Origin: an uncultured Marinoscillum sp. | GTDB taxonomy: Bacteria > Bacteroidota > Bacteroidia > Cytophagales > MED-G16 | DNA: 64,000 bases | Assembly: GCA_902529805.1 (NCBI GenBank) | Contig: CABZXU010000003.1 | Span: 1 to 64,000, forward strand | Reading direction: 5' to 3' | The notes under the pieces: model-generated | Databases searched by the model: none | Told to the model about the DNA's origin: nothing | Seen by the model: the letters and a program-made list of their open reading frames with translations, nothing else | Program-made: the position numbers and the translations under genes | Part shown: one piece after another, positions 2,304 through 47,578 of the stretch | How the letters are laid out: every line of letters starts with the position of its first letter | Numbering within the stretch: position 1 is the first letter of the stretch

Positions 2304-3647
2304 ATGATAAATAAAATATTAATTGCAAATAGAGGGGAAATAGCTCTAAGAATAATTAGAAGCTGCAAAGAAATGGGAATAAATACGGTAGCTGTATATT
2401 CAACAATTGACAGAGAAAGTTTGCATGTTAAATTTGCAGATGAGGCAGTATGTATTGGTCCACCAAATTCTAAAGATTCTTATCTAAATATTCCAAAAAT
2501 AATTGCAGCAGCAGAAATAACAAATTCTGAAGCTATTCATCCAGGTTATGGTTTTTTAGCTGAAAATTCTGAGTTTTCTAAAATTTGTTCTGAAAGTAAA
2601 ATAAAGTTTATAGGACCAACTCATCAAATGATAGAAAGAATGGGAGATAAAATAACTGCAAAAAAAACAATGGAAAAAGCAGGAATTCCTACTGTTCCTG
2701 GATCAAAAGATTTGATAGAATCAGTGCTTCAGGGAAAAAAATTGGGGAAAAAAATTGGTTATCCAATTATTCTAAAAGCTACAGCTGGCGGTGGAGGCAA
2801 AGGCATGAGAATAGTTAATGCAGAAAAAGATTTTAAAAAATCATGGGAAGAAGCAACTAATGAGTCTAGTGCAGTTTTTGGAAATTCAGGTTTATATATT
2901 GAAAAGTACATTGAAGAGCCAAGACATATTGAAATACAAATAGTTGGAGATAAATATGGAAATGTTAGTCATTTATCAGAAAGAGATTGCTCAATACAAA
3001 GAAGACATCAAAAACTTATTGAGGAAACACCTTCCCCATTTGTTGATGAAGAATTAAGAGAAAAAATGGGTCAAACAGCAATAAAAGCTGGAAAAGCTAT
3101 AGATTATGAAGGCGCTGGTACAATAGAGTTTATTGTTGATAAAAATAAAAACTTTTACTTTATGGAAATGAATACAAGAATTCAAGTTGAACATGGAGTT
3201 ACAGAAGAAGTTACTGATTTTGATTTAATAAAAGAACAAATAAAAGTAACCGATGGAGCAAAAGTGTCTGGAAAAAATTATTATCCAAAACTTCATGCTA
3301 TTGAATGTAGAATTAATGCTGAAGACCCTAAAAGAAATTTTATTCCTTCTCCAGGAAAAATCACAAACCTTCATATACCCGGAGGTCATGGTGTTAGAGT
3401 TGATAGTCATGTTTATGCTGGATATACTATTCCACCAAATTATGATTCTATGATTGCTAAAATAATTACCACTCATCAATCTAGAGATGAAGCTATTGTT
3501 AGAATGAAAAGAGCTCTTGAGGAATTTGTTATAGAAGGGATTCATACAACAATCCCATTACATCTTAAATTAATGAATAATAAATCTTTCTGTGATGGAA
3601 ATTTTACAACCAAATTTTTAGATAATTATGACTTTAAATCCATTTAA
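2304..3647 (+). CDS. accC: Acetyl-CoA carboxylase biotin carboxylase subunit
   Basis: [43 protein letters not shown] motifs; follows accB. Confidence 0.96.
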
Positions 3648-20156: not shown

Positions 20157-23100
20157 TTACTTTATAATTATTTTCTTATATAATTTTTTCTCTTTGTGAT
20201 TTAATTCTAATATATAAATACCTTGAGAATTTTTTGAAAAGTCTACCTTATGAGTATTGTAGCCAGATTTATTATTAAATATAGTTTGATATTTAGATCT
20301 CCCAAATATATCCAATACATTAATTCCAACATCACCTTTAAATACATCATTAAATTCAATGTTAAAGATTCCAGTAGAAGGATTTGGGTAAATATTAATT
20401 TTTTTGAAAGAAAGATCTTCTAATCCAGAAACAACTGGTTTATCCATTTGAACATACAAATCATCAATTGCCCATCCCCATCCTACAGTATATGGATCAG
20501 AGTGTAATTTAAATCTAACCTTAACTGTATCTCCAACAGAAAATGTAGGAGTAAATTCTATTTCTCTGTCTTTTAACATCGATGATGTAGCTGAAACTTC
20601 TGCAGCATATGCAGATAACCAATCTGAATGCGCTCTTGAATCATAGCCATCAACCAATGGCTTCCAACTATTTTCATTATGTTTTGATGCTTCAACAATA
20701 ACATAATCCCAAAATTCTGGATCTCCATAAGAAGTCCCTGCTTCTCCTATTTCAACAATGGCTACTTCTCTAAATTTTATTGATGGAGTATAATTTGATA
20801 CAACAATTGGAGTATTTAACGTAGCAAATAACTCTATGTATCCACCCGAACCAGCATTTTGATAAGGATGTGGCTGGGTATGAAGAATATCTCCAGAAAA
20901 ACCACTATATGAGCTTATAATAAATCCATCAAGGGTAAACTCATTTCCTAGCATATCAGAAAAATTTGTTCCATACTCACTTGAAACTTCAAGAGTTACA
21001 CCTATTATAATATCCAAAGTATTTGAAGGATAATTTAAACCATTTTTGTATCCAGTAGCAATAACAGGGAATGTACCTGCGTCATTAAAGGTTATATTAA
21101 CAGTATCAATCCCTACTGAATTTTGAGTAGAAATCGTGTGTAATAAAGTTGATCCAGTATTAAAAAGTACTGAATCAAATTCTGATTTAAGGTCAATTCT
21201 TATATCTATCTTGTATTCGGGTCCTGGTTGATTATATCCAATTAATTCTGGTTGTAATATAGCAGTTTTTGGAACGAAAGAAGATAAAGCAGGAATTGAT
21301 GCTGTCCAAACCCCTCTTCCATGAGTTGCTATAACAATTTCACCTTGATCTTTTATTTTCATATCCCAAATACTAACGTTTGGTAAATTACTGTCTACTA
21401 AATTCCATGTTGCTCCTCTATCGATAGATTCTACAAGTCCAATGTCAGTTCCTGCCCAAATTACATCACTATCAAACGGCATAACTACTAAACTATATAC
21501 ACCTACATTAGGAAAACCATTTGAAGATACACCTATCACATTATTAGCAGGAAATCCAGTAATATCATTCCAAGTTGCACCTAAATCTTTAGTTTCAATA
21601 ATTTTTGCCTTGCCATAAACTGAAAAAAGAACGTATGCAGTAGAATCTTCTGTTGGATGTGAATATAAACCAGAGATAGAACCAATTTCTTCAAAAACTG
21701 ATGTAGGTAAAAAAGTTTCACCCCAATCATTTGAAACAAAAATCTTACCAGGAAGAGTTGTTCCACTTAACTTCATCCTTCCTCCAGCCCAAACAAATCT
21801 TGGGTTTGCTTGAGACACCTCAACATCTGAGCCAGCCTTAAATCCCCAATCATCAACAATTTCAGATGTTTTCCATGAACCCCCAAAATTTGATGATTTA
21901 TGAACACCTTTCTGACTAATTGCATAAAGAACATCTGGGTTTTGGTAAGAAGTTGATAATCTAGTAAGAAATGGACCAAATTCCCTCATTTCACTGGTTG
22001 GAACATAATTCCATTGAGCTCCACCATTTAAAGATCTCCATAGGTAATTACCTTGGGCTCCACCAATCATAGAGTCTGGATTATTCCAATGAGTTATAAC
22101 TTCAAAACCATCTCCACCAATTTCATATGAATAGTCAGATGAAGAAGAAGCTATTTCACTTGAAGGAGAAAGCCAGGTTCCATTATCTTGAAACCCGCTA
22201 AAGTATTGATGTTTCCCTTTAACTTTATCTGCTCCATATGCTTGAGAAGTGTTGTAACCAGAAGTTCTTTCAAGTATAAAATCACCTTCAACTTCACCTG
22301 GAGTAGTACTTGATTTAGTAAGAGCTACACCACCGTCATTACCATTTAATATTCTGAATTTTCCACCTCCATCTTTAATTACAGTTAAAAAATGATGATC
22401 AACATGAACATCATTATTTAATGTATCAATATCATTATAACCATCAGTTAAGTGAGTAGTATTTTTATATAATAAATTTGTAAGCTTAGACTTATAGATA
22501 TCTACAGATCCTGTATAAAAGATACTATCATTATATGGATGAACAGCAATAGTATTTGCATACCAACCAAATATTTGTAGGTAATCTTCTATGGTACCAT
22601 CCTGGTTAGCAGCTTCAGTCCATGTTGAACCTCCATCAAATGAAACGAATACATGTGATTTTGCTGAAGTTCCTTCTAAGGCAGCATATAAAATATTAGC
22701 TGAATTATGTGATACGGCAATTTCAGCTCGATTGAATTGTCCAGAAACAGAACTACTGTATATAGGTAATTCATTCCATGTTGTGCCGGCATCAACAGAT
22801 TTTAAAGCACTACCTCTTCTAACTGCAGCATAAATGGTATCAAAACTAGTTGGAGCTGCAACAACTTGTTGTAATCTACCAGAACTTTTTTTTACTTCAG
22901 TCCATGTTGAACCTCCATCAGTAGATTTAAAAATATATGAATAACCATCAGGCGCAAGGGTAGTTGCAATAACAATATCAGCATTAGAAGGACTAGCAAT
23001 TACTCTACTCACTTGATAGAATTTGTCATCAACTATACCAGATGTTTTTGGAGAAACATTTGACCAATTTAAACCCCCATTAGTAGATTTGAAAACACCA

Positions 23101-23693
23101 CTACCGTCAATAGCATCAAAATTCCCTACCCAACTTTCTCCGGTACCAACATACAATACAGAAGGATTAGCTGCAGACTGTGCTAAACTTGATATGGCTA
23201 TATTTTCTAAGTCTTGAGATAATGAAGTCCATGAAGTACCAGAATTAGATGTTTTCCAAACTCCACCACCAACTCCACCAGCATACCATGTATTTCCAGT
23301 ATTATCAGCTGCATCTACTACAATAGCTCTTGTTCTCCCAGGGACATTAGTTGGACCTCTTTCAGTAAATGTTGCAGTAGCTGCAGCAGAAGTACCAAAG
23401 TTAGGAGTATTGTTATCTTTTTGAACAATTGATGAACGTAATAAAGATTTTTTATATAAGTTTTTTTTCATCTTTAAAAGTTCTTTTTCTTTATATCCTA
23501 TTGGATAAAGATTTTCATTTGACTCATCGCCTTTTTTAATAGACGAAAAATATTCTTTGAATTTATCTGGACTATCTTTTCTTACAATTTCTGAAACTTG
23601 AATTTTAGTAGAATTATCAAAATAATTAATAGTTACAGTTAATGAAATTATTAGTAGTAATACTGTTAATGATATGCTAAAAATATTCTTCAT
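20157..23693 (-). CDS. Secreted BNR/sortilin-type beta-propeller protein with T9SS type A C-terminal sorting domain (copy A; no Calx-beta)
   Basis: Repeated S-x-DGG-x-TW Asp-box motifs; C-terminal IYPNPSTGIFNIEF...LDIFGRSKYQT... sorting domain; N-terminal hydrophobic segment. Confidence 0.85.
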   Translation of the reverse strand: MKNIFSISLTVLLLIISLTVTINYFDNSTKIQVSEIVRKDSPDKFKEYFSSIKKGDESNENLYPIGYKEKELLKMKKNLYKKSLLRSSIVQKDNNTPNFGTSAAATATFTERGPTNVPGRTRAIVVDAADNTGNTWYAGGVGGGVWKTSNSGTSWTSLSQDLENIAISSLAQSAANPSVLYVGTGESWVGNFDAIDGSGVFKSTNGGLNWSNVSPKTSGIVDDKFYQVSRVIASPSNADIVIATTLAPDGYSYIFKSTDGGSTWTEVKKSSGRLQQVVAAPTSFDTIYAAVRRGSALKSVDAGTTWNELPIYSSSVSGQFNRAEIAVSHNSANILYAALEGTSAKSHVFVSFDGGSTWTEAANQDGTIEDYLQIFGWYANTIAVHPYNDSIFYTGSVDIYKSKLTNLLYKNTTHLTDGYNDIDTLNNDVHVDHHFLTVIKDGGGKFRILNGNDGGVALTKSSTTPGEVEGDFILERTSGYNTSQAYGADKVKGKHQYFSGFQDNGTWLSPSSEIASSSSDYSYEIGGDGFEVITHWNNPDSMIGGAQGNYLWRSLNGGAQWNYVPTSEMREFGPFLTRLSTSYQNPDVLYAISQKGVHKSSNFGGSWKTSEIVDDWGFKAGSDVEVSQANPRFVWAGGRMKLSGTTLPGKIFVSNDWGETFLPTSVFEEIGSISGLYSHPTEDSTAYVLFSVYGKAKIIETKDLGATWNDITGFPANNVIGVSSNGFPNVGVYSLVVMPFDSDVIWAGTDIGLVESIDRGATWNLVDSNLPNVSIWDMKIKDQGEIVIATHGRGVWTASIPALSSFVPKTAILQPELIGYNQPGPEYKIDIRIDLKSEFDSVLFNTGSTLLHTISTQNSVGIDTVNITFNDAGTFPVIATGYKNGLNYPSNTLDIIIGVTLEVSSEYGTNFSDMLGNEFTLDGFIISSYSGFSGDILHTQPHPYQNAGSGGYIELFATLNTPIVVSNYTPSIKFREVAIVEIGEAGTSYGDPEFWDYVIVEASKHNENSWKPLVDGYDSRAHSDWLSAYAAEVSATSSMLKDREIEFTPTFSVGDTVKVRFKLHSDPYTVGWGWAIDDLYVQMDKPVVSGLEDLSFKKINIYPNPSTGIFNIEFNDVFKGDVGINVLDIFGRSKYQTIFNNKSGYNTHKVDFSKNSQGIYILELNHKEKKLYKKIIIK

Positions 23694-23745
23694 AATATGT
23701 AAATAAGAGTATAAATATAAGGATTTTTAAAGTTATTATTAAAAA

Positions 23746-26700
23746 TTATTGTTTAACAACTTTTTTAATAACCTTTTTATTATCCATTACTAGTTCTATT
23801 ACGAAAATACCGTCAGATTTGTTTGATATATCGACTTGATGTTCTACTTGACCAGATGAATTATCAATATTTCTTTGATATTGTGATCTTCCAAAGATAT
23901 CTAATACTCTAAGATCCAAATTACCTTTCCAAGTATCATTAAATCTTATATTAAAGATTCCAGAACTAGGATTAGGATAAATACTGATCGAACCGTCAGA
24001 TCCTTGATCTTCAATTCCTGTTACCGTATCATCATCTGTGATGGTAATGGTTACAGTTGTATCACTAGATAAAGTTGCATTGATAACAGAATCAATTGAT
24101 ATTACTACGGTTTCATCATCTTCATCATCTGAATCCTGAACAGCAGTTACTGTTGCTGTACCAGTGGTTCCTGATGAAATTGTTATAGTTTTTGAACTTA
24201 AGGTATAATCAGCTGCAACAGCAGTGCCTCCAGCACCAAATTCTTTTAAAGCAACAACTACATCACCTGAATTTGGAGCTTTATCTAAAGTTGCAGTAAT
24301 TGTTGATACACCTGAGTCTTCGATTATAGAAGTATTATCAACAGAAAGAGATACAACTGGCGGAGTATTAGCTCCGTCATTATCTTTTACAGTTATTGTA
24401 ACCTGTTGGGTGCCTGATTCTTTACCGTTTACAACAGTTGAAATATCTACAATAATTGTTTCATCAGGCTCTACATCATTATCATCAGTAGTTGTAATTA
24501 TTATATTTCTAGACTTATTTGCAGAATCAAGTATTGTATAACTTGGACCTCCTAAAGTATATTCAAACGCTGAAAGAGTACCAGTTACAGATAGATTAAC
24601 TGTTATTGGACCATTAGGTGAAACATCCTTTTCAGCTGTAATAGTTAGTTTTGCATCTTGACCCTCAATAATATTAACTGTATCAACTGATAAGGTAACA
24701 ATATTTTCTTTTGGTTCCCAGTTAACAAGATCCGGTATAGTAGCTGTCCAGATTCCTCTTCCATGAGTAGCAAGCACAATCTCTCCTTGATCTTTAATTT
24801 TCATATCCCAAACTGTTACATGAGGAAAATTGGATGTTGCATAAGGTATAATATTCCAACTTGCTCCCCTATCTGTGGTTTCAACAATTCCTATATTAGT
24901 TCCAACCCAAATAACATCAGGATCATGTGGCATTATAACAAGACTATGAGTTTCTACATCAGGAAAACCAGCAGTTGAAGTACCTTCAGTAAAATTTGCT
25001 GGAAAACCAGTAATATCAGTCCAAGTAGCTCCTAAATCTCTACTTTCTAATACTTTTGATTTTTTTGGTCTTGAAAATAATATATAGACTGTGGAATCTT
25101 CGGTTGGGTGAGAATAAATTCCGGAAATTGAAGAGCTAACTCCAGCAGGCTTTGTTATAGGATTAAAAGTTTTTCCCCAATCTTTGGAAAGAAAAAGATT
25201 ATGATCAGATGTTATTGCACCTCCTGCCCAGACAAATCTTGGATTTGCAATGGATACTTCGACATCACTCCTACTATAATATTTGTTAGGTGAAGGATTT
25301 AAAATTTCAATGAGCTTAAATCTATCTCCTCCGAAGTCTTTAGACCTCCACACACCACTATCTCTATGAACAGCATACACAACATCAGGATCTTGATATG
25401 AAGTTGATAATCTTGTTATAAATGGAGCAATAGCACTACCTTTGGTGTTTTGTCCAATAGAACTAAACCATATACCATTGGTCATTCTTGCTAGTCCATT
25501 ATATTGAGATCCTGTCATCATTGAATCTTTATTTTCCCAGTGAGTAATAACCTCAAATCCATCGCCTGACCAAACTCTTGCATGAGGAGTAGTTCCTTTA
25601 GCTATAGAGTCTTTAGGGGATAGATATGAGCCATTATCTTGAGTTCCTCCAAGATATTGTTTTCTACCAATGACTTTATCTGCTCCATAAAATTGAGTGG
25701 ACCTATAACCAACATCTGTGGGTAAATATGGAACATTAGTAAATGCCCATTTATATTTAGTTGCTATCCATTCACCCTCATTTACACCCGGATCTGAAGA
25801 GGAATTTGAAATGGCCAAACCGCCATCATTTCCAACTATAAGTCTAAATTTTCCACCACCATCTGATACTGTTTTTATCGTATGTTGATCTGGATGAACA
25901 TAACCATTTTTTTTATTAATTCCATCTGATCCAACATCTTCATATACATCTGTTAAATGAACTGAATTTTTTGTGTTATCTGCTAAAACGGTAAACTTAA
26001 AAAGGTCTATACCTCCAACATAAACCACATTGTCATTTACTGGACTTAAGACAATACAATTATCATAATACCCTTGTTTATCTAACCAAAAATCTGTTGA
26101 ATATCTAGGATCACCTGAAGTACCATTCTCTTGAATATGCGTCCAAGTAGAACCACCATCAAGGGTTCTGTATAAATACGAAGGGCCACTAGTTGATGTT
26201 CTTATACCAGCATAAACTTTATTAGGATCAATATGAGAAACAGCTATTTCATAGCGACCATAGCTTCCAGATATTCCAAAAGGTGTAGTAGCTGTCCATG
26301 TATCTCCGGCATCAGTAGATTTTAATACAGGCTTACCTTTAGATACTGCATATTGAGTATTAAAATCTGATGGTGCAGCAACAATTTGAGTAATCTGATT
26401 ACAAGTTGAACCATTCCAACCACTTTCTAATTTTGTCCACGAAGTACCCCCATTAGTAGTCTTGTATATAAAGGTATCACACCAATAGTTTTCTCCAGTT
26501 GCAGCAATTACTACATCTGGGTTAGTTGGATCAACAATTATTCTAGTAACCGTTCCAAAACCAGAAATAACTTTTCCACCAGATTTTTTAGATACATTTG
26601 TCCAAGAACTACCGCCATCTGTTGATTTAAATATACCATCACCCCATCCACCTGATCCACCAATATGACTTTCTCCTGAACCAGCATAAATTATATTTGG

Positions 26701-27210
26701 ATTTGATTGAGATTGGGCAAGTGAATTAAAATTAATATTTGGCAATCCAGAGGTAAGATTCGTCCATGACACTTTCTCGTTAGCACCAGAGCCACTATGG
26801 ATTCCTTTCCATATACCACCACCAGGACTAGCAGCATAAAATGTTTTTCCAGATGCATCAGCAGCATCAACAATTAAACCCCTTGTTCTACCTGAAACAT
26901 TCCCGGGCCCTCTTTCAGTAAAAGTAGCAACCGCAGCTGCAGAACTCCCAAAATTAGGATTATCTTGATCACTAGAAGCACTTAAGGTAGGTCCACTTAA
27001 TCTAGTAAGCATTTTATCAAGTTCAACCTGTTTGTATCCTGGATAATAATTTGATCCTATTTCATTATAGGTAATGTCTCTAAAGTATTTTTCAAATTCA
27101 TCAGAATATTCAAGCTTAGAGTCTACAATAAGCCTCTCTTCTTGATTATAGGAAACAAAAATTAAAAACGAAAAAAAGAATATAGATATAAGAAAGTAAT
27201 ATTTTTTCAT
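23746..27210 (-). CDS. Secreted BNR/sortilin-type beta-propeller protein with two Calx-beta-like domains and T9SS tail (copy B)
   Basis: Asp-box repeats; Calx-beta-like DNDVEPDETIIVDI and DSDDEDDETVVISI; ISIYPNPSSGIFNIRF tail. Confidence 0.87.
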   Translation of the reverse strand: MKKYYFLISIFFFSFLIFVSYNQEERLIVDSKLEYSDEFEKYFRDITYNEIGSNYYPGYKQVELDKMLTRLSGPTLSASSDQDNPNFGSSAAAVATFTERGPGNVSGRTRGLIVDAADASGKTFYAASPGGGIWKGIHSGSGANEKVSWTNLTSGLPNINFNSLAQSQSNPNIIYAGSGESHIGGSGGWGDGIFKSTDGGSSWTNVSKKSGGKVISGFGTVTRIIVDPTNPDVVIAATGENYWCDTFIYKTTNGGTSWTKLESGWNGSTCNQITQIVAAPSDFNTQYAVSKGKPVLKSTDAGDTWTATTPFGISGSYGRYEIAVSHIDPNKVYAGIRTSTSGPSYLYRTLDGGSTWTHIQENGTSGDPRYSTDFWLDKQGYYDNCIVLSPVNDNVVYVGGIDLFKFTVLADNTKNSVHLTDVYEDVGSDGINKKNGYVHPDQHTIKTVSDGGGKFRLIVGNDGGLAISNSSSDPGVNEGEWIATKYKWAFTNVPYLPTDVGYRSTQFYGADKVIGRKQYLGGTQDNGSYLSPKDSIAKGTTPHARVWSGDGFEVITHWENKDSMMTGSQYNGLARMTNGIWFSSIGQNTKGSAIAPFITRLSTSYQDPDVVYAVHRDSGVWRSKDFGGDRFKLIEILNPSPNKYYSRSDVEVSIANPRFVWAGGAITSDHNLFLSKDWGKTFNPITKPAGVSSSISGIYSHPTEDSTVYILFSRPKKSKVLESRDLGATWTDITGFPANFTEGTSTAGFPDVETHSLVIMPHDPDVIWVGTNIGIVETTDRGASWNIIPYATSNFPHVTVWDMKIKDQGEIVLATHGRGIWTATIPDLVNWEPKENIVTLSVDTVNIIEGQDAKLTITAEKDVSPNGPITVNLSVTGTLSAFEYTLGGPSYTILDSANKSRNIIITTTDDNDVEPDETIIVDISTVVNGKESGTQQVTITVKDNDGANTPPVVSLSVDNTSIIEDSGVSTITATLDKAPNSGDVVVALKEFGAGGTAVAADYTLSSKTITISSGTTGTATVTAVQDSDDEDDETVVISIDSVINATLSSDTTVTITITDDDTVTGIEDQGSDGSISIYPNPSSGIFNIRFNDTWKGNLDLRVLDIFGRSQYQRNIDNSSGQVEHQVDISNKSDGIFVIELVMDNKKVIKKVVKQ

Positions 27211-27274
27211 AAAGTGGTTTAAAGATATAAATCTAAAAAATATAATTTAATTTATATAGAAAAAATTGAAGTGA

Positions 27275-30200
27275 TTATTGTTTAATAATCTTCTTTATCA
27301 CTCTTTTATCCTCTTGTGATAACTCTACAAAGAAAACTCCATCGGATTTGTTTGAAATATCTACTTCATGTTCAACATGACCAGATGAATTATCAATATT
27401 TCTTAGGTATTGTGATCTTCCAAAAATATCCAATACTCTAAGATCCACATTGCCTTTCCAAGTATCATTAAATCTTATCTTAAAGATTCCAGAAGTAGGA
27501 TTTGGGAAAATGGATATAGCTTTTCCTACTACAATATCTTCTAGTCCTGCAACCGTATTATCTCCATCCTTTATTGTGATTGTTACTCGTTGTGTTCCTA
27601 CTTCTTTTCCATTGGTTACAGAGGAAACATCTACAACCACAGTTTCATCATTTTCAACTTCTGTATCATTAAGTGCAGTAATTGTTGCTGTACCAGATTT
27701 TCCAGAAGTAATTGTAATTGTAGTTGAACTTAAAGTATAATCAGATGCAGAAGCTGTACCTCCAGCGCTTAAAGAAACTACTACAGGAAACAAAGGGTTT
27801 ACATCTCTTGTGGCAGTAGCGGTGATTGTAGCAACCCCTCCCTTTTCTTCTATATCTATACTTTGAGATCCATTAGTGGTTATTGTAATTGAATTTTCTT
27901 TTGGTTCTGAATTAATAAGATCTGGAATTGTCGCAGTCCAAATACCTCTTCCATGAGTAGCAAGTACAATCTCACCTTGATCTTTGACTTTCATATCCCA
28001 TATGTTAACGTGTGGTAAATTAGAAGAAACAATGTTCCAACTAGCACCTCTATCTGATGTCTCTACTATTCCTATATCTGTTCCCGCCCATATTATATTG
28101 GAATCAAAAGGCATAACACATAAACTAAAAACCTTTACATTTGGGAATCCTCTATCTGATACACCTTTTTGCCAATTAGCAGGGAATCCAGAAATATCAG
28201 TCCAAGTAACACCTAAATCTTTTGTTTCATAAATTTTAGATCTTCCAAAATAGGATAAAAGAACATATGCAGTAGAATCTTCATTGGGATGGGAATAAAT
28301 TCCTGAAGAACTTATATGATTATAATTTGGAATAATATCTGTAACTGGACTAAAAGATTCTCCCCAATCTTTAGAAAGATATAAATTACCACCTTCATTT
28401 CCAACTCTTGAACCAGCCCAAACAAAACGAGGATTAGCAAGTGATACTTCTACATCTTTACGATAACCATTCCATCCTCCATCTGAAATACTTTTCAAAT
28501 TCCAATTTGCTCCAAAATCTGTAGATTTCCAAATTCCAATCGTATCATGAATTGCATATACAACATCAGGTTCATGATATGGGCTTGATAATCTTACCAA
28601 AAATGGAGCAATGGGACTACCACTAATCCCTGATGAAATAGAAGTCCAAGTATTTCCTCCATTCAGACTTCTTCTTAACCCATTGTATTGAGATCCCCCC
28701 ATCATAGAATCAGGGTTATTCCAATGAGCAATCACTTCGAAACCATCCCCACCTATTCCATAACTATAATTTGTTGTTGCACTAGCATTTTCAGAACTCG
28801 AAGAGAATTGCGTTCCATTGTCTTGCATTCCACCAATGTATTGTTGTTTGCCCTTTATCTTATCTGCACCATAGAATTGTGCTGTATTAAATCCATCATT
28901 AGCTCTTTTCCAATCTCCAAAAGTCATACCGGGATTAGAAGTTACTTGAGTAGTATATGCAACACCACCATCGTTGGCATTTAATAATCTAAAATTACCA
29001 GCTCCATCATCTATTCCTTGAATAAATTGATGATCAACATGTGGACCACTCGCCATAGCTTCAGTATTTTTTGAACTATCATTTAAAACTGTAAATTTAT
29101 AAAGGGTTACACCCCCCCCGTATAATATATTGTCATCATAAGGATTTATACCTAGCGTATTATCTCTCCAGCCTTGTTGATTTAACCAATAATCTGGCAT
29201 ATGGTTTACATTACCAGAAACAACATTTTCCTGTATTTGATACCATGAACTACCGCCATTAACCGTTCTAAATAAATAAGAAGCTGGTGTTCCATGGCTA
29301 TATCTAGTTCCAGCATATACTTTATTAGGATTAGTATTAGATACAACTAATTCAACACGGCCATAATTAGATATACCAAAAGGAGCTGTTTGATTCCAGG
29401 TAGAGCCTGCATCTATTGATTTTAAAACTTTGGCACTTTGATTTCCAGCATATTGTATACTAAAATTACTTGGTGCTGCAACAATTTGTTGTATTATTCC
29501 TATTCCTTCTTCATGTACTTTATTCCAACTTGACCCACCATCAATTGATTTAAATATATATGATTCATTTTGTGAAAAAGAAAAAGTATTTGCAATAACT
29601 ATGTCTGAATTAGAAGGATCTACTATTAATCTATTAACACTACCAAATCGGTGGTCAATTAAGCCTCCAACTTGAGGAGAGATATTTGTCCATACTGGAT
29701 CAGGACCACTAACATCGATTTTAAAAACACCATCACCATCAATTGCAGTCGAAGCACCTAAAGCAGATTCTCCTGTACCAGCATATATAATGTTTGGATT
29801 ACTAGCAGATTGTCCTAAGGTAACTATAGCGAGGTTTTGGATTGTCACTGGGGTCATATTTGTCCAAGAGACATTTGTAGTTGTTGGATTATAAACTCCT
29901 TTCCATAATCCACCACCAACACCAGCAGCATACCATGTATTTCCTGTTGCATCAGCAGCATCTACAACAACACCTCTTGTCCTTCCAGGCACATCATTTG
30001 GCCCTCTTTCGGTAAAAGTTGAAGTAGCAGCAGCAGAAGAACTAAAAGGGATATCTTCCTTTCCTTGATTATTAACAATAGCAAAGCGATTAGTATTGTT
30101 TCTTTCCAACATCTTATTCAGTTCTACCTGCTTATATCCAGGATAATAATTTGGTCCCTCATCTAAATGTGAAATTTCATAAAAAAATTTAACATACTTG

Positions 30201-30334
30201 TCTGGTTCAGCATAATTAGATAAACTTTTATTTTTTATTTTCTTTTCATTATAAATTGAAAGAATAAGAAAAAAGGAAAATAATAATATAGATAAATAAA
30301 TAAATTTTTGCATAATGATGTTTACAAAAACCAA
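27275..30334 (-). CDS. Secreted BNR/sortilin-type beta-propeller protein with one Calx-beta-like domain and T9SS tail (copy C)
   Basis: Asp-box repeats; NDTEVENDETVVVDV; ISIFPNPTSGIFKIRF tail. Confidence 0.87.
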   Translation of the reverse strand: MVFVNIIMQKFIYLSILLFSFFLILSIYNEKKIKNKSLSNYAEPDKYVKFFYEISHLDEGPNYYPGYKQVELNKMLERNNTNRFAIVNNQGKEDIPFSSSAAATSTFTERGPNDVPGRTRGVVVDAADATGNTWYAAGVGGGLWKGVYNPTTTNVSWTNMTPVTIQNLAIVTLGQSASNPNIIYAGTGESALGASTAIDGDGVFKIDVSGPDPVWTNISPQVGGLIDHRFGSVNRLIVDPSNSDIVIANTFSFSQNESYIFKSIDGGSSWNKVHEEGIGIIQQIVAAPSNFSIQYAGNQSAKVLKSIDAGSTWNQTAPFGISNYGRVELVVSNTNPNKVYAGTRYSHGTPASYLFRTVNGGSSWYQIQENVVSGNVNHMPDYWLNQQGWRDNTLGINPYDDNILYGGGVTLYKFTVLNDSSKNTEAMASGPHVDHQFIQGIDDGAGNFRLLNANDGGVAYTTQVTSNPGMTFGDWKRANDGFNTAQFYGADKIKGKQQYIGGMQDNGTQFSSSSENASATTNYSYGIGGDGFEVIAHWNNPDSMMGGSQYNGLRRSLNGGNTWTSISSGISGSPIAPFLVRLSSPYHEPDVVYAIHDTIGIWKSTDFGANWNLKSISDGGWNGYRKDVEVSLANPRFVWAGSRVGNEGGNLYLSKDWGESFSPVTDIIPNYNHISSSGIYSHPNEDSTAYVLLSYFGRSKIYETKDLGVTWTDISGFPANWQKGVSDRGFPNVKVFSLCVMPFDSNIIWAGTDIGIVETSDRGASWNIVSSNLPHVNIWDMKVKDQGEIVLATHGRGIWTATIPDLINSEPKENSITITTNGSQSIDIEEKGGVATITATATRDVNPLFPVVVSLSAGGTASASDYTLSSTTITITSGKSGTATITALNDTEVENDETVVVDVSSVTNGKEVGTQRVTITIKDGDNTVAGLEDIVVGKAISIFPNPTSGIFKIRFNDTWKGNVDLRVLDIFGRSQYLRNIDNSSGHVEHEVDISNKSDGVFFVELSQEDKRVIKKIIKQ

Positions 30335-30362
30335 TCTACAAAAAATTATTAATCTTTAAAAT

Positions 30363-33300
30363 TTACTTCTTAAAAATCTTCTTTATGACTCTTTTATCCT
30401 CTTGAGATAACTCTACAAAGAAAATACCATCGGATTTGTTTGAAATATCCACTTCATGTTCTAGCTGACCAGATGAATTATCAATATTTCTCCTGTATTG
30501 TGATCTACCAAAAATATCCAATACTCTCAGATCCACATTACCTTTCCAAGTATCATTAAATCTGATCTTAAAGATTCCAGAAGTAGGATTAGGATAAATA
30601 CTAATCAAGCCTTCAGATCCTTGATCTTCAATTCCTGTAACAGCATCATCGTCTGTAATGGTAATGGTTACTTGTTGCGTACCCGACTCCGTTCCATTAC
30701 TTACTGATGAAATATCAATAACTACAGTTTCATCATTTTCATTATCAGAGTCCTGAACAGCAGTTACAGTTGCTGTACCAGTGGTTCCAGATGAAATTGT
30801 TATAGAAGTTGAACTTAAAGTGTAATCAGATGCAGATGCAGTGCCCCCAGCACTAAAAGAAACAACTACATTTCCTGAATTTGGTGCTTTATCCAATGTA
30901 GCAGTAATAGTAGAAACCCCTGCAGCTTCAGCAATAGAAGCATTATCAACAGATAAAGTTGCAACAGGAGGAGTATTATCTCCATCATCATCTTTAACAG
31001 TTATTGTCACTTGTTGACTACCAGATTCCTTACCATTCACAACAGAGGAAATATCAACTATTACAGTTTCATCGCTCTCTTGATCTGAATCATCTACTCC
31101 AGTAACAGTAACTGTTTTCGTAGTACCTGTAGAATCAAGAGTAACAGAAGTAGCACTTAACGTATATTCAGAACCAGCAGCAGTACCACTTGCAGCTAAA
31201 TTAACTGTAATTGGTCCATCAGGAGAAACATCTTTTCCAGCAGTTATAGTTAATGTTGCAACACCTCCATTTTCAGTAATATTTACAGTATCAACAGATA
31301 ATGTAAGTAGATTTTCTTTTGGTTCCCAACTCACAAGATCTGGTATGGTAGCTGTCCATATTCCTCTTCCATGCGTTGCTAATACGACTTCTCCTTGGTC
31401 TCGAACTTTCATATCCCAAACACTAACATGAGGAAAATTAGTTACTAAACTCCAACTAGCACCTCTATCAGTTGTTTCAACAATTCCTATATCTGTTCCA
31501 GCCCAAATTACATCAGTGTCATATGGCATAACAGCAAGGCTAGTTACTGCTACATTAGGAAAACCAGCTGAAGAAACCCCATAGCCCCAACCAGCTGGAA
31601 ATCCTGAAATATCAGACCAGGAATCACCTAAATCTTTGGATTCAAATATTTTCCCTCTTCCAAAAGAAGATAAAAGAATATAAACTGTTGAATCTTCAGT
31701 TGGATGAGAATATATTCCTGAAACACCAGCTCCTACACCAGTTGGTTTATTTGTAATCGCTTGAAAAGTATTACCCCAATCTTTAGATAAGTAAAGGTTT
31801 CCAGAACCAGATATAAAACCTGAAGCCCATACAAACCTTGGGTTTGACATTGAAACTTCTACATCTCCAGGACTCCAACCTCCAATATCAGGTGGAATTT
31901 TTAATTGCCAATTAGCTCCAAAATCTTTTGTTTTATATATGCCATCATCTCCTATTACATATGCTACATCAGCATCTTGATAAGAACCAGTAATTCTACT
32001 TATAAATGGCCCTCCGCCAGTTCCATTGTGAGGAGACCAAGTTGTTCCAATATATGTCCAATTCGTACCTCCATTAAGACTTCTACTAAATCCATTATAT
32101 TGATAACCACCTATCATTGAATCTGCATTGTCCCAATGAGTAAGAACTTCAAGACCATCTCCACCAACACCTCTAGTATAACTAGAACTAGCTACGGCTG
32201 TTGCAGCTGGATTGGAATACCATGTGCCATTATCCTGTGCTCCAGCAAGATAAGCATGGACACCTTTAATTTTATCTGCACCATAAAACTGAGTAGTTCT
32301 ATAACCATCAGTCGATGCAAAAAAATCATTATGGTTGATACCTGGATCTGCTGCAGAATTTGAAACTGCAATACCACCATCACTACCATTTAATATTCTA
32401 AATTTACCTCCTCCATCATTTATAGTCGTTAAAAAGTGATGATCTACATGAACATAATAGTTTTTACCATCAACATCCCAATAACCATCTGTTATATGAG
32501 TTGAATTTTTTGTATTATCTCCTAGAACAGTAAATTTAAAAAGCTGAATACCGCCAAGATAAACAACGTTATCATCTAATGGACTTACTGTAATACAGTT
32601 GTCATACCACCCCTGACCATCCAACCAAAAATCAGTTGTATATCTAGCATCTCCTGATGCACCATTTTCTGTAATATGAGTCCATGAAGTTCCTCCATCA
32701 AGACTTCTATATAGATATGATTGATCACCAGATTTTCTAACTCCTGAATAAACTTTGTTAGGATCAGTATGAGAAACAGCCAATTCGTACCTACCATATC
32801 CTGAAACTGAAAAGTCAGTAACTGCCGACCAATTATCACCAGCATCTGTAGATTTTAACATAGGATTTCCCCTAACAGCAGCATATTGTATATTAAAGTT
32901 ACTTGGAGAAGCAAGAATTTGTTGAATATTACCACTCCCTTGTTGCACCTGAGTCCATGAGGTTCCACCGTTGGTTGTCTTAAAAATATAAGAATTACCA
33001 CTGGCAATTTTTAGTGTACTTGCTAATACAATATTTTTATTTGCAGGGTCTACAATTATTCTACTAACGTTACCATACTTAGAGTCAATTACCCCGCCTG
33101 AAGTTGGAGTTATATTTGTCCATATTGGAGATGCTGGATCTGAAACATCTACTTTAAATATACCATCACCTGTAATTGCATCTACATTATATGACCAATC
33201 TTCTCCAGTTCCTACATATAGAATAGTAGGATCATTAGCAGATTGTGCAATCGTTGAAATTGCAATATTTGATACAGTTGTAGGAGTTAAATTAGTCCAT

Positions 33301-33755
33301 GTAACACTTTCTCCAGAACCATCACTAGCATATACACCTTTCCATAATCCACCACCTACTGCACCAGCATACCATGTGTTTCCAGTAGCATCGGTTGCAT
33401 CGACAACTATAGCTCTAGTCCTCCCTGGAACATTATTTGGTCCTCTCTCCGTAAAAGTGGCAGCTGCAGCAGCAGAAGTTCCATAACGAATAGAATTATC
33501 ACCTTCTTGAACATTACTCTGACCTAACCTAACAACATCTAACCTTGAAATCATTTTATCAAGTTCAACCTGTCTATATCCAGGATAATACCCTTCGCCC
33601 AATATTTCACTCTTATACTTATGAAATTTTTCTGGCCCCTTATATTTAGCAGTTTCTAAGTTGTTTTTTTTAAAAAAAGAAAAGACAAAAACGGAAATAA
33701 ATATTATAGAAAAAAAGTATTTTAAACTATTTTGAAATTTTGTAAGTGAGATCAT
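30363..33755 (-). CDS. Secreted BNR/sortilin-type beta-propeller protein with two Calx-beta-like domains and T9SS tail (copy D, promoter-proximal)
   Basis: Asp-box repeats; DDSDQESDETVIVDI and DSDNENDETVVIDI; ISIYPNPTSGIFKIRF tail. Confidence 0.87.
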   Translation of the reverse strand: MISLTKFQNSLKYFFSIIFISVFVFSFFKKNNLETAKYKGPEKFHKYKSEILGEGYYPGYRQVELDKMISRLDVVRLGQSNVQEGDNSIRYGTSAAAAATFTERGPNNVPGRTRAIVVDATDATGNTWYAGAVGGGLWKGVYASDGSGESVTWTNLTPTTVSNIAISTIAQSANDPTILYVGTGEDWSYNVDAITGDGIFKVDVSDPASPIWTNITPTSGGVIDSKYGNVSRIIVDPANKNIVLASTLKIASGNSYIFKTTNGGTSWTQVQQGSGNIQQILASPSNFNIQYAAVRGNPMLKSTDAGDNWSAVTDFSVSGYGRYELAVSHTDPNKVYSGVRKSGDQSYLYRSLDGGTSWTHITENGASGDARYTTDFWLDGQGWYDNCITVSPLDDNVVYLGGIQLFKFTVLGDNTKNSTHITDGYWDVDGKNYYVHVDHHFLTTINDGGGKFRILNGSDGGIAVSNSAADPGINHNDFFASTDGYRTTQFYGADKIKGVHAYLAGAQDNGTWYSNPAATAVASSSYTRGVGGDGLEVLTHWDNADSMIGGYQYNGFSRSLNGGTNWTYIGTTWSPHNGTGGGPFISRITGSYQDADVAYVIGDDGIYKTKDFGANWQLKIPPDIGGWSPGDVEVSMSNPRFVWASGFISGSGNLYLSKDWGNTFQAITNKPTGVGAGVSGIYSHPTEDSTVYILLSSFGRGKIFESKDLGDSWSDISGFPAGWGYGVSSAGFPNVAVTSLAVMPYDTDVIWAGTDIGIVETTDRGASWSLVTNFPHVSVWDMKVRDQGEVVLATHGRGIWTATIPDLVSWEPKENLLTLSVDTVNITENGGVATLTITAGKDVSPDGPITVNLAASGTAAGSEYTLSATSVTLDSTGTTKTVTVTGVDDSDQESDETVIVDISSVVNGKESGSQQVTITVKDDDGDNTPPVATLSVDNASIAEAAGVSTITATLDKAPNSGNVVVSFSAGGTASASDYTLSSTSITISSGTTGTATVTAVQDSDNENDETVVIDISSVSNGTESGTQQVTITITDDDAVTGIEDQGSEGLISIYPNPTSGIFKIRFNDTWKGNVDLRVLDIFGRSQYRRNIDNSSGQLEHEVDISNKSDGIFFVELSQEDKRVIKKIFKK

Positions 33756-44471: not shown

Positions 44472-44506
44472 AAAAAAGGAGAAAAATTAATGTTTTCTCC
44501 TTTTTT
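44472..44506 (-). terminator. Intrinsic terminator downstream of the nonapeptide-repeat gene
   Basis: Perfect inverted repeat AAAAAAGGAGAAAA / TTTTCTCCTTTTTT with 7-nt loop; long T-run in minus-strand transcript. Confidence 0.8.
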
Positions 44507-44530: not shown

Positions 44531-45709
44531 CTAATTTACAGCACCTTTAGCAAATTTTTGAAATTCTGCTCCTTTCATAAACTTCTGAAATTCTGCTCCT
44601 TTCATAAACTTCTGAAAAGATGAACCTTTTGCAAATTTAGAATAAGCACCGCTTTTCATAAATTTTTGAAAATCAGCACCTTTCATAAACTTCATAAAGT
44701 CTCCATTTTTAGCAAACTTCTGAAACTCAGCTCCCTTAGCAAACTTCTGAAGATCAGCTCCCTTAGCAAACTTCTGAAGATCAGCACCTTTCATAAACTT
44801 CTGAAGTTGAGCATCTTTCATAAACTTCTGCAGTTCAGCTCCTTTCATAAACTTCTGAAATTCTGCTCCTTTCGCAAACTTCTGAAATTCTGCTCCTTTA
44901 GCGAACTTTTCAAAGTCTGCTCCTTTAAAAAACGCTGATCTAATAACTGGTGCTGCAACTAATACACCTAGTGTTATCGCGAAGTTGAACTCACCACCCA
45001 CTTTCATAAACTTCTGATATTCTGCTCCTTTCATAAACTTCTGAAATTCTGCTCCTTTCATAAACTTCTGAAATTCTGCTCCTTTCGCAAACTTCTGAAA
45101 TTCTGCTCCTTTCATGAACTTTTGAAATTCACCTAACTTCATTAGAAGCTTTCCAGGAGTACCCCTACTATCTGAAGTTTTATTATTATTGTCACCTAAT
45201 TCTCTTCCACCACTTGAAGATATTGATCTTCCAGCTCCACCATCTTGATTAAAATTAGATAAACTAGAAGTTCCTTGTCTTAAATCATCTTCGCCAATAC
45301 CTCCTCCAGAACCTCCTCCAGACTTACCGTCTCTTTGTGTATATGGTTCTTGCTCATTTGAGGTCATCAAATCATCATTTCCCATAACATCAGCAACAAT
45401 GCTGAATACAGGATCATCAAGGACCTTCAAAAACTCATCATTCTCAACAAGTTTAGCAAATTCAGGAGTTGCAATCATTTTCATGAAGTCTTCATTTTGT
45501 AAAACTTCCTGAATCTCCTCACCTTCTAACTCAACAGCAATAGTATTTTTCTCAGAATACTTCTCAGCTTTCTTAATACTAGTAATACCTGAACCAGCAC
45601 CCATTGACGGATCAATAGAACCAGTTTGAATAAGAAGATAACCTACAGCAGCAATTGCTACTACAGTACAAACAATCAAAATATTTAATTTATCATGTAC
45701 TCTTTTCAT
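44531..45709 (-). CDS. Membrane-anchored nonapeptide-repeat protein (19 x AEFQKFMKG-like), function unknown
   Basis: N-terminal TM LNILIVCTVVAIAAVGYLLI; 5 + 14 consecutive 9-residue repeats; Gly/Ser-rich linker. Confidence 0.9.
   Translation of the reverse strand: MKRVHDKLNILIVCTVVAIAAVGYLLIQTGSIDPSMGAGSGITSIKKAEKYSEKNTIAVELEGEEIQEVLQNEDFMKMIATPEFAKLVENDEFLKVLDDPVFSIVADVMGNDDLMTSNEQEPYTQRDGKSGGGSGGGIGEDDLRQGTSSLSNFNQDGGAGRSISSSGGRELGDNNNKTSDSRGTPGKLLMKLGEFQKFMKGAEFQKFAKGAEFQKFMKGAEFQKFMKGAEYQKFMKVGGEFNFAITLGVLVAAPVIRSAFFKGADFEKFAKGAEFQKFAKGAEFQKFMKGAELQKFMKDAQLQKFMKGADLQKFAKGADLQKFAKGAEFQKFAKNGDFMKFMKGADFQKFMKSGAYSKFAKGSSFQKFMKGAEFQKFMKGAEFQKFAKGAVN
44543..44920 (-). repeat. 27-bp coding tandem repeat block 2 (14 units)
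   Basis: aa 264-389: ADFEKFAKG ... AEFQKFAKG in uninterrupted 9-aa register. Confidence 0.95.
44999..45133 (-). repeat. 27-bp coding tandem repeat block 1 (5 units)
   Basis: aa 193-237: GEFQKFMKG AEFQKFAKG AEFQKFMKG AEFQKFMKG AEYQKFMKV. Confidence 0.95.
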
Positions 45710-45752: not shown

Positions 45753-45810
45753 AAATTATTTTATAATGGAGTTGTATGAGAAAAGTCATAGTTCGATTAT
45801 AAAATAATTT
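45753..45810 (-). promoter_or_regulatory. Leader hairpin: perfect 15-bp inverted repeat around a nested TATGA/TCATA stem, followed by a T-rich run
   Basis: AAATTATTTTATAAT (45753-45767) and ATTATAAAATAATTT (45796-45810). Confidence 0.55.
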
Positions 45811-45821
45811 AAAAACGTAGG

Positions 45822-45829
45822 CAAAGATA
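45822..45829 (-). promoter_or_regulatory. Putative Bacteroidota -7 box TATCTTTG for the nonapeptide-repeat gene
   Basis: Minus strand TTATCTTTGCC about 113 bp upstream of the ATG at 45709. Confidence 0.5.
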
Positions 45830-47128: not shown

Positions 47129-47578
47129 TTAACTTTTCTTTTTCTTTTTCTTTTTCTTACCAAAAAAATATAGAGAATGACTATCTATTTCTACATCATA
47201 AATTTTCTCTATTGAATTTTTTATTAGTTGTATTCTAGGATCACAAAATTCTAATATTTCATCATTTTCTAAAATCAAATGATCATGTTGTCTGTACCCA
47301 AAAGCCTTTTCATATTTAAATGTATTGTTCTTAAATATATGTTTAGTTACAAGATCTAGGTCTACAAGTAAATCAAGAGTATTATATATAGTAGCTCTAC
47401 TTACGCTAAATTTACTTTTTTTCATTCTATTATATAACTCATCGGCATCAAAATGATGGTTAAAATCATATATTTCTTCTAGTATAGCATATCTCTCAGG
47501 GGTCTTTCTCTGTTTTTTTAATTCTATGTGATTATCAAGAATTTTTTTAATTTGATCCATTACTTTACTTTGACTCAT
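47129..47578 (-). CDS. Fur-family transcriptional regulator with C-terminal octalysine
   Basis: RKTPERYAILEEIY, SRATIYNTLDLL, YRQHDHLIL; ends GKKKKKKKKS. Confidence 0.88.
   Translation of the reverse strand: MSQSKVMDQIKKILDNHIELKKQRKTPERYAILEEIYDFNHHFDADELYNRMKKSKFSVSRATIYNTLDLLVDLDLVTKHIFKNNTFKYEKAFGYRQHDHLILENDEILEFCDPRIQLIKNSIEKIYDVEIDSHSLYFFGKKKKKKKKS

Follow-up and report, generated by a model that had tools for sequence, protein, structure and literature searches.

What does a bacterial protein do that consists of one membrane segment and a long series of nine-residue units, and with which partners does it act? The question is raised by a gene in a 64,000-nucleotide stretch of DNA from an uncultured Marinoscillum sp., here called the window. 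A first-pass annotation regarded it as a separately regulated gene and proposed that its product, belonging to no named repeat family, forms a filament or lattice or interacts with membranes or nucleic acids. We compared the protein and its neighbours with libraries of known families and structures, with relatives in the window's own family of bacteria and, through phylum-wide profile searches that reached genomes of other classes, with distant homologues; beyond the window's family these genomes are a sample and not a census.

The repeat is indeed unnamed, as no Pfam, NCBIfam or PADLOC family matched the protein, and the only library matches below an E-value of 0.01 were two PHROGs without assigned function (E = 5e-4 and 0.008). 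A phage origin was rejected, there being no relative in viral contigs and the PHROGs being two weak families of unknown function, as was a role in anti-phage defence, given the lack of a PADLOC match.

Structure of the repeat protein

The reading frame previously placed at 44531–45709 is correct and is encoded by the minus strand; translated from the plus strand, this interval contains 18 stops (Table 1). The gene is single-copy in its own genome, two further matches being the same DNA in other frames. Translated from the opposite strand, the array gives another open frame, likewise repetitive and 90 residues long (44666–44938, plus strand), a by-product of the 27-bp period.

Table 1. Features of the repeat-protein locus in the window.
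Feature	Position	Strand	Evidence
First cassette gene (gene 1), membrane protein with nonapeptide repeats, 392 aa	44531..45709	minus	
Transmembrane (TM) segment, about residues 8–28	45626..45688	minus	hydropathy; helix 2–28 in low-confidence AlphaFold model
Membrane-proximal conserved motif AGSGITSIKKAEKYSEKN, residues 38–55	45545..45598	minus	homologue comparison
Divergent nonapeptide units, residues 66–101	45407..45514	minus	homologues; low-confidence model helices 66–70, 73–79, 82–88, 91–98
Gly/Ser/Asn-rich linker, about residues 105–190	45140..45397	minus	found in the window's family only
Array 1, five units xEFQKF[MA]KG	45002..45130	minus	strict pattern and TRF
Interruption with second hydrophobic stretch (GEFNFAITLGVLVAAPVIRSAFF)	44921..45001	minus	hydropathy, homologue comparison
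Array 2, fourteen units	44540..44920	minus	strict pattern and TRF
TATCTTTG, candidate Bacteroidota -7 promoter element	45822..45829	minus	seen in sequence
A/U-rich leader hairpin (or purA end)	45753..45810	minus	-14.3 kcal/mol, z -3.8
Intrinsic terminator, interval between gene 1 and protease gene	44472..44506	minus	stem conserved in five genomes
Gene 2, secreted metalloprotease, about 1,020 aa	41373..44444	minus	HELVH and HEGIA signature
Gene 3, PrsW-family intramembrane metalloprotease, 258 aa	40592..41368	minus	PF13367, E = 2.1e-32

The protein has a single N-terminal TM segment, as had been described (one hydrophobic segment at about residues 10–28, Kyte–Doolittle mean 2.5). Since a short, basic tail of about seven residues, MKRVHDK, precedes it, the N-terminus is probably inside and the repeats outside; repeats outside the cytoplasm are also the most likely topology because relatives carry an anti-sigma domain, a TM segment, the membrane-proximal motif and repeats in this order. 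The motif follows a family pattern, [VI]x[KRE]Ax[RK]Yx, common even to relatives with differing repeats. The linker noted earlier ahead of the arrays is present, rich in Asn as well as Gly and Ser. Nineteen units fit [FLY]xKF[AM]Kxxx, five before and fourteen after a 27-residue interruption; this agrees with the earlier count, which nevertheless overlooked three or four divergent units beside the membrane. These occupy residues 66–101 (EVLQNEDFMKMIATPEFAKLVENDEFLKVLDD) and are of the same kind, and homologues run through them unbroken. TRF scored the array at 346 (period 27, 21.6 copies), far above all other repeats in the window. A further hydrophobic stretch, FAITLGVLVAAPVIRSAFF, lies within the interruption. 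The hydrophobic 19-mer found there occurs in G014, from another genus, and is missing from the same-genus genome G001 and from G005 and G002, and it may represent an old polymorphism, an exchange or a second membrane segment.

An AlphaFold model built from a four-sequence alignment contains local helices only, each unit forming a seven-residue helix and a two-residue turn, and its pLDDT of 43.5 is too weak to support a fold. A PDB fold search with this model gave no match, and a search of solved structures with the protein matched the linker only.

Conservation and charge of the units

The window units have the consensus FQKFMKGAE, and 13 of the 19 are distinct. They share with RTX proteins a nine-residue tandem period in secreted or exported proteins; unlike those, they lack a Gly/Asp-rich Ca-binding consensus and are predicted to be helical, not beta-roll, and an RTX identity was rejected because FQKFMKGAE does not fit GGxGxDxxx. 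The net charge per unit, put at about +1 by the first-pass annotation, was measured at +1.16. Averages of -0.4 to +0.2 were found outside the window's family, to which charges of about +1.2 are restricted, and a nucleic-acid or membrane interaction deduced from what is a family-level quirk finds no backing. Nothing favours assembly into a filament or lattice.

Unit counts and selection values were taken from strict patterns. The suggestion that copy number varies was correct: there are 19 units in the window, 17 in G001, 15–17 in three other family members (counted by pattern) and 28–37 elsewhere. Divergence between units is mainly synonymous, with pS 0.59, pN 0.19 and pN/pS 0.32 in the window and pS 0.81, pN 0.13 and pN/pS 0.16 in G399, whose 36 units nearly all read FA[EGQ]L[AML]KDAR and, as FAELAKDAR, are the most regular; other arrays show a similar or stronger synonymous excess. 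The repeat units are under purifying selection, and the gene product is supported as a real envelope protein, as had been supposed. Unit identity is 0.46–0.83 within a lineage versus about 0.13–0.47 between distant lineages. Synonymous sites of the longer arrays are close to saturation, and the likeness within lineages points to selection for a lineage-specific unit and not to recent duplication alone; older gene conversion may be an added source.

A conserved three-gene cassette

The idea of a lone, separately regulated gene is not supported: the gene is the first of a conserved cassette that also encodes a metalloprotease and a PrsW-family protease, and these conserved neighbours rule out an orphan. 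We found no description of this cassette in the open literature, a weak negative to which subscription papers do not contribute.

The metalloprotease (gene 2) has a signal-peptide-like N-terminus, an HExxH motif, a propeller-like middle with weak TolB/lactonase (beta-propeller) matches, and a beta-rich C-terminus that we infer to be an outer-membrane barrel. It combines HExxH with a downstream Glu, as in the Peptidase MA clan, and H119, E120, H123 and E173 are invariant in 11 homologues; the match to Pfam Peptidase_MA_2 (E = 0.0048) is below the cut-off. Its AlphaFold model (four-sequence alignment) had a pLDDT of 32, at which domains are not assignable. Gene 3 carries the motifs EExxKF and GFAxxEN and two His, all invariant in six homologues, and with 150 bits against a cut-off of 225 for the NCBIfam PrsW equivalog it is a family member, not the equivalog. 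In its single TM segment, its extracytoplasmic part and the PrsW encoded beside it, the repeat protein resembles an RsiW-type RIP substrate.

A metalloprotease of about 1,000 residues, related to gene 2 (39–99% identity in the pairs compared), follows the repeat gene in all covered nonapeptide loci except the second copy of G109, and is usually followed by a PrsW-family intramembrane protease. Repeat protein, protease and PrsW follow one another in this sequence within the window's family, and likewise in two further families of the same order. The second G109 repeat protein (L103:1283-2362) is followed directly by a PrsW-like gene (2564-3346), without a metalloprotease. Among loci with the downstream side covered, those whose repeat protein is TM-anchored have PrsW beside the protease in 25 of 26 cases (the exception being G409), those with a signal peptide in none of 7 (Fisher p 2e-6, which is not independent evidence because the correlation follows clades). 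This is the pattern to be expected were the repeat protein's anchor the target of PrsW.

The first-pass annotation would have doubted the gene if close relatives lacked it, and it is indeed absent from 8 of 14 family relatives (G003, G004, G006, G007, G008, G010, G011 and G013); the partner protease, however, is missing from the same eight. Repeat and protease genes are present together in six genomes of the family and absent together in eight, and gain or loss has thus affected the cassette as a whole. The G012 contig breaks off upstream of the protease gene.

Of the regulatory elements proposed earlier, the terminator hairpin is the strongest: its stem is conserved in five family genomes while the flanks diverge. 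It lies between the repeat and protease genes. The gene's own promoter comes down to a candidate: TATCTTTG resembles the Bacteroidota -7 consensus and is kept in G001. The structured leader is a genuine hairpin (z -3.8), but it was found in the same genus only and could be the end of purA. Rfam gave no match above threshold at the locus.

Relatives fused to an anti-sigma domain

In genomes of other classes the repeat gene belongs to an operon for an RsbW-like kinase (HATPase_c_2, E = 4e-14), STAS, an ECF sigma factor, an anti-sigma factor, the TM-repeat protein, the protease and PrsW; in G708 a GAF-SpoIIE phosphatase is encoded as well. In 10 genomes (G654, G708, G481, G697, G409, G819, G821, G793, G817 and G815; G409 is without an adjacent PrsW) a single polypeptide carries the anti-sigma domain, joined in frame, ahead of the TM segment and repeats; in seven more (G399, G616, G747, G528, G804, G655 and G464) an adjacent gene encodes the domain. 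At G655, G604, G464 and G409 the anchor and the motif are kept, but the repeats are of other, less strict kinds. A profile built from 15 of the anti-sigma domains found Bacillus subtilis RsiW as its best PDB match (E = 6.8e-7, 70 of 73 positions). Two NCBIfam anti-sigma models match 8 and 7 of the 15 members (best E about 1e-6; these are E-values, the output carrying no curated cut-offs), and no Pfam anti-sigma model matched the fused or adjacent domain significantly. In RsiW, PrsW cleaves site 1 and RasP site 2 (PMC3498285).

The window protein has no room for a cytoplasmic anti-sigma domain in its N-terminal tail, and the proposal that it is itself an anti-sigma factor is false. No sigma or anti-sigma gene lies near the repeat gene at the locus, and the one strong ECF match in the window genome is located elsewhere, at C4, with no obvious anti-sigma gene beside it. 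The protein is much better supported as a putative outside half of an RsiW-type system. In polymorphic-toxin systems PrsW is fused N-terminal to toxin domains (PMC3482391); such a system was rejected, as the window locus contains no toxin domain.

A predicted regulated-proteolysis system

With moderate confidence we regard the window protein as a periplasm-facing sensor and substrate, anchored in the inner membrane, of a regulated-proteolysis cassette that here lacks a sigma module of its own. The anatomy, homology, gene order, gene fusion and selection on units from which we start are established; from them we infer the topology, the order of the proteases, the signal, the output and proteolysis itself. 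Each nonapeptide would be a short amphipathic helix with F1, L/F4 and A/M5 turned inward and a turn at positions 7–9, and because each unit is probably one such helix, the array would form a long helical strip, variable in length in steps of one unit. What this strip most likely engages is the protease or its propeller. A change in the envelope could then lead the protease to clip the strip or to uncover the conserved membrane-proximal segment (GSGIxxVKKAxKY), whereupon PrsW would cut next to or within the membrane. In the relatives the piece released would carry an RsiW-like anti-sigma domain that holds the ECF sigma factor, the operon being a partner-switch one of the RsbW/STAS kind. The cassette of the window's lineage, where that domain and the sigma genes are missing from the locus, may signal via another partner or be an envelope proteolysis device only. 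Against the sensor-substrate reading stand the missing cytoplasmic domain of the window protein, the lack of sigma or anti-sigma genes near it, the fused protein of G409 without an adjacent PrsW, and the terminator between the repeat and protease genes here.

The repeat protein would then be the outer half of a bacterial signalling system not described before. The cassette resembles RsiW/PrsW/sigma-W of B. subtilis in that the relatives combine, in one operon, an anti-sigma domain of the RsiW type with a single TM segment and a protease of the PrsW family. It differs in having a long tandem nonapeptide array as its outer part, a dedicated metalloprotease of about 1,000 residues and an RsbW/STAS pair, and in the window member by the missing anti-sigma part. 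This gives an unnamed repeat family its first functional context and would link three otherwise unannotated marine proteins to anti-sigma regulated proteolysis, an idea that the fused relatives make directly testable. If the units are the recognised element, the cassette would be a natural example of a receptor with a tandem array as its ligand-facing surface, differing from lineage to lineage in steps of complete units.

Alternative explanations and a branch with longer units

More distant proteases of the same family (profile E <= 1e-187) lie downstream of genes for Sec-secreted proteins with [VI]xxAxRYR after the signal peptide. These proteins contain 6–16 near-identical 15–16-mers (for example SGSQLDELGSKYGWVR, 16 times, SSALNELGSRYGFVR and SASQVEALGSAYIFGR), each ending in R/K, and are under strong purifying selection (pN/pS 0–0.21); the units vary between species mostly at positions 2–3, 6–7 and 10–15. 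PrsW is absent, and OppA/B/C, a Ser/Thr kinase with TPRs, a sigma-54 activator and histidine kinases occur nearby in varying combinations. Several contigs end inside or just before an array, as expected from assembly breaks at repeats. Arrays of this kind beside the protease were seen at L180, L181, L182, L183, L177, L184 and L175, and such loci are a possible peptide signalling cassette in their own right. As in RRNPP systems with Opp import in Gram-positive bacteria, a secreted precursor-like protein, a protease and an oligopeptide transporter are adjacent; unlike those systems, the arrangement is absent from the window's lineage, has many copies per precursor, occurs in hosts of Gram-negative type, and its processing is predicted.

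This branch raises the alternative that the window array is itself a multi-copy precursor, cut by the protease into short signal peptides that some lineages import through Opp. Yeast alpha-factor is a parallel for such a precursor. The shared protease family and the [V/I]xxAxRYR motif common to nonapeptide and 15–16-mer proteins argue for it, together with the selection on the longer units, their variation between species, their R/K ends and the adjoining transporter and kinase genes. The window protein itself is TM-anchored, its units lack near-identity and its gene has no Opp genes nearby; the anti-sigma-fused homologues read as an attached domain, and the Opp linkage may reflect coincidental operon make-up. 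We consider a precursor unlikely here, although released units would amount to a new peptide signalling route in bacteria of Gram-negative type. Rather doubtful, too, is the broader proposal that two-gene units of a lineage-specific repeat and an envelope metalloprotease embody one ancestral signalling principle throughout the phylum, in which the array, as a multi-copy peptide or a strip open to cleavage, would be read either by RsiW/PrsW/ECF sigma or through Opp import and kinases; it would imply peptide-type signalling in Bacteroidota-type bacteria with species-specific repeat 'dialects'.

The Met-rich hydrophobic grooves of STI1 domains bind TM segments (PMC13083928), and the array might analogously be an STI1/ubiquilin-like chaperone strip whose groove binds exposed hydrophobic segments of misfolded envelope proteins and thereby senses or buffers envelope stress. 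The units would be short Met/Phe-rich helices; as in STI1/HOP DP and ubiquilin STI1, short helices starting from N/S-P turn Phe/Leu/Met inward, and distant homologues pass the Pfam cut-offs (STI1-HOP_DP 44.7 and 51.2 bits, cut-off 29.1; UBQLN1 31.3, cut-off 27; all whole-protein scores). These scores, however, are summed over many repeats, with no single stretch passing alone for STI1 in its two high-scoring homologues, and the window protein reaches 9.0 (STI1) and 11.4 (UBQLN1) bits, both under the cut-offs. The cassette repeats are strictly of nine residues, in 12–42 copies and extracytoplasmic, the PDB fold search found no match, and the likeness may be convergence on NPxFxxL. Decidedly unlikely as a rival, chaperone-like binding is compatible with the sensor reading as its sensing step. 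A structural tether or filament, spanning the periplasm from the inner membrane to an outer-membrane partner without signalling, would accommodate the TM anchor, linker, long array and variable copy number, and the terminator would let the repeat protein outnumber the protease; for a passive part, however, steady protease pairing and anti-sigma fusion elsewhere are unexpected, and we think it very improbable.

Other features of the window

Four consecutive genes of about 1,010–1,180 codons with Por_Secre_tail lie at 20157–33755; three have Sortilin-Vps10 propellers, and two that were compared are 47% identical. They form a tandem family of T9SS-secreted proteins. At the junction of a Fur-like regulator gene and purA (47129–47163), a TTTTCT run, a possible slippage site, encodes overlapping Lys/Arg-rich protein ends, KKKKKK and RKRKRK.
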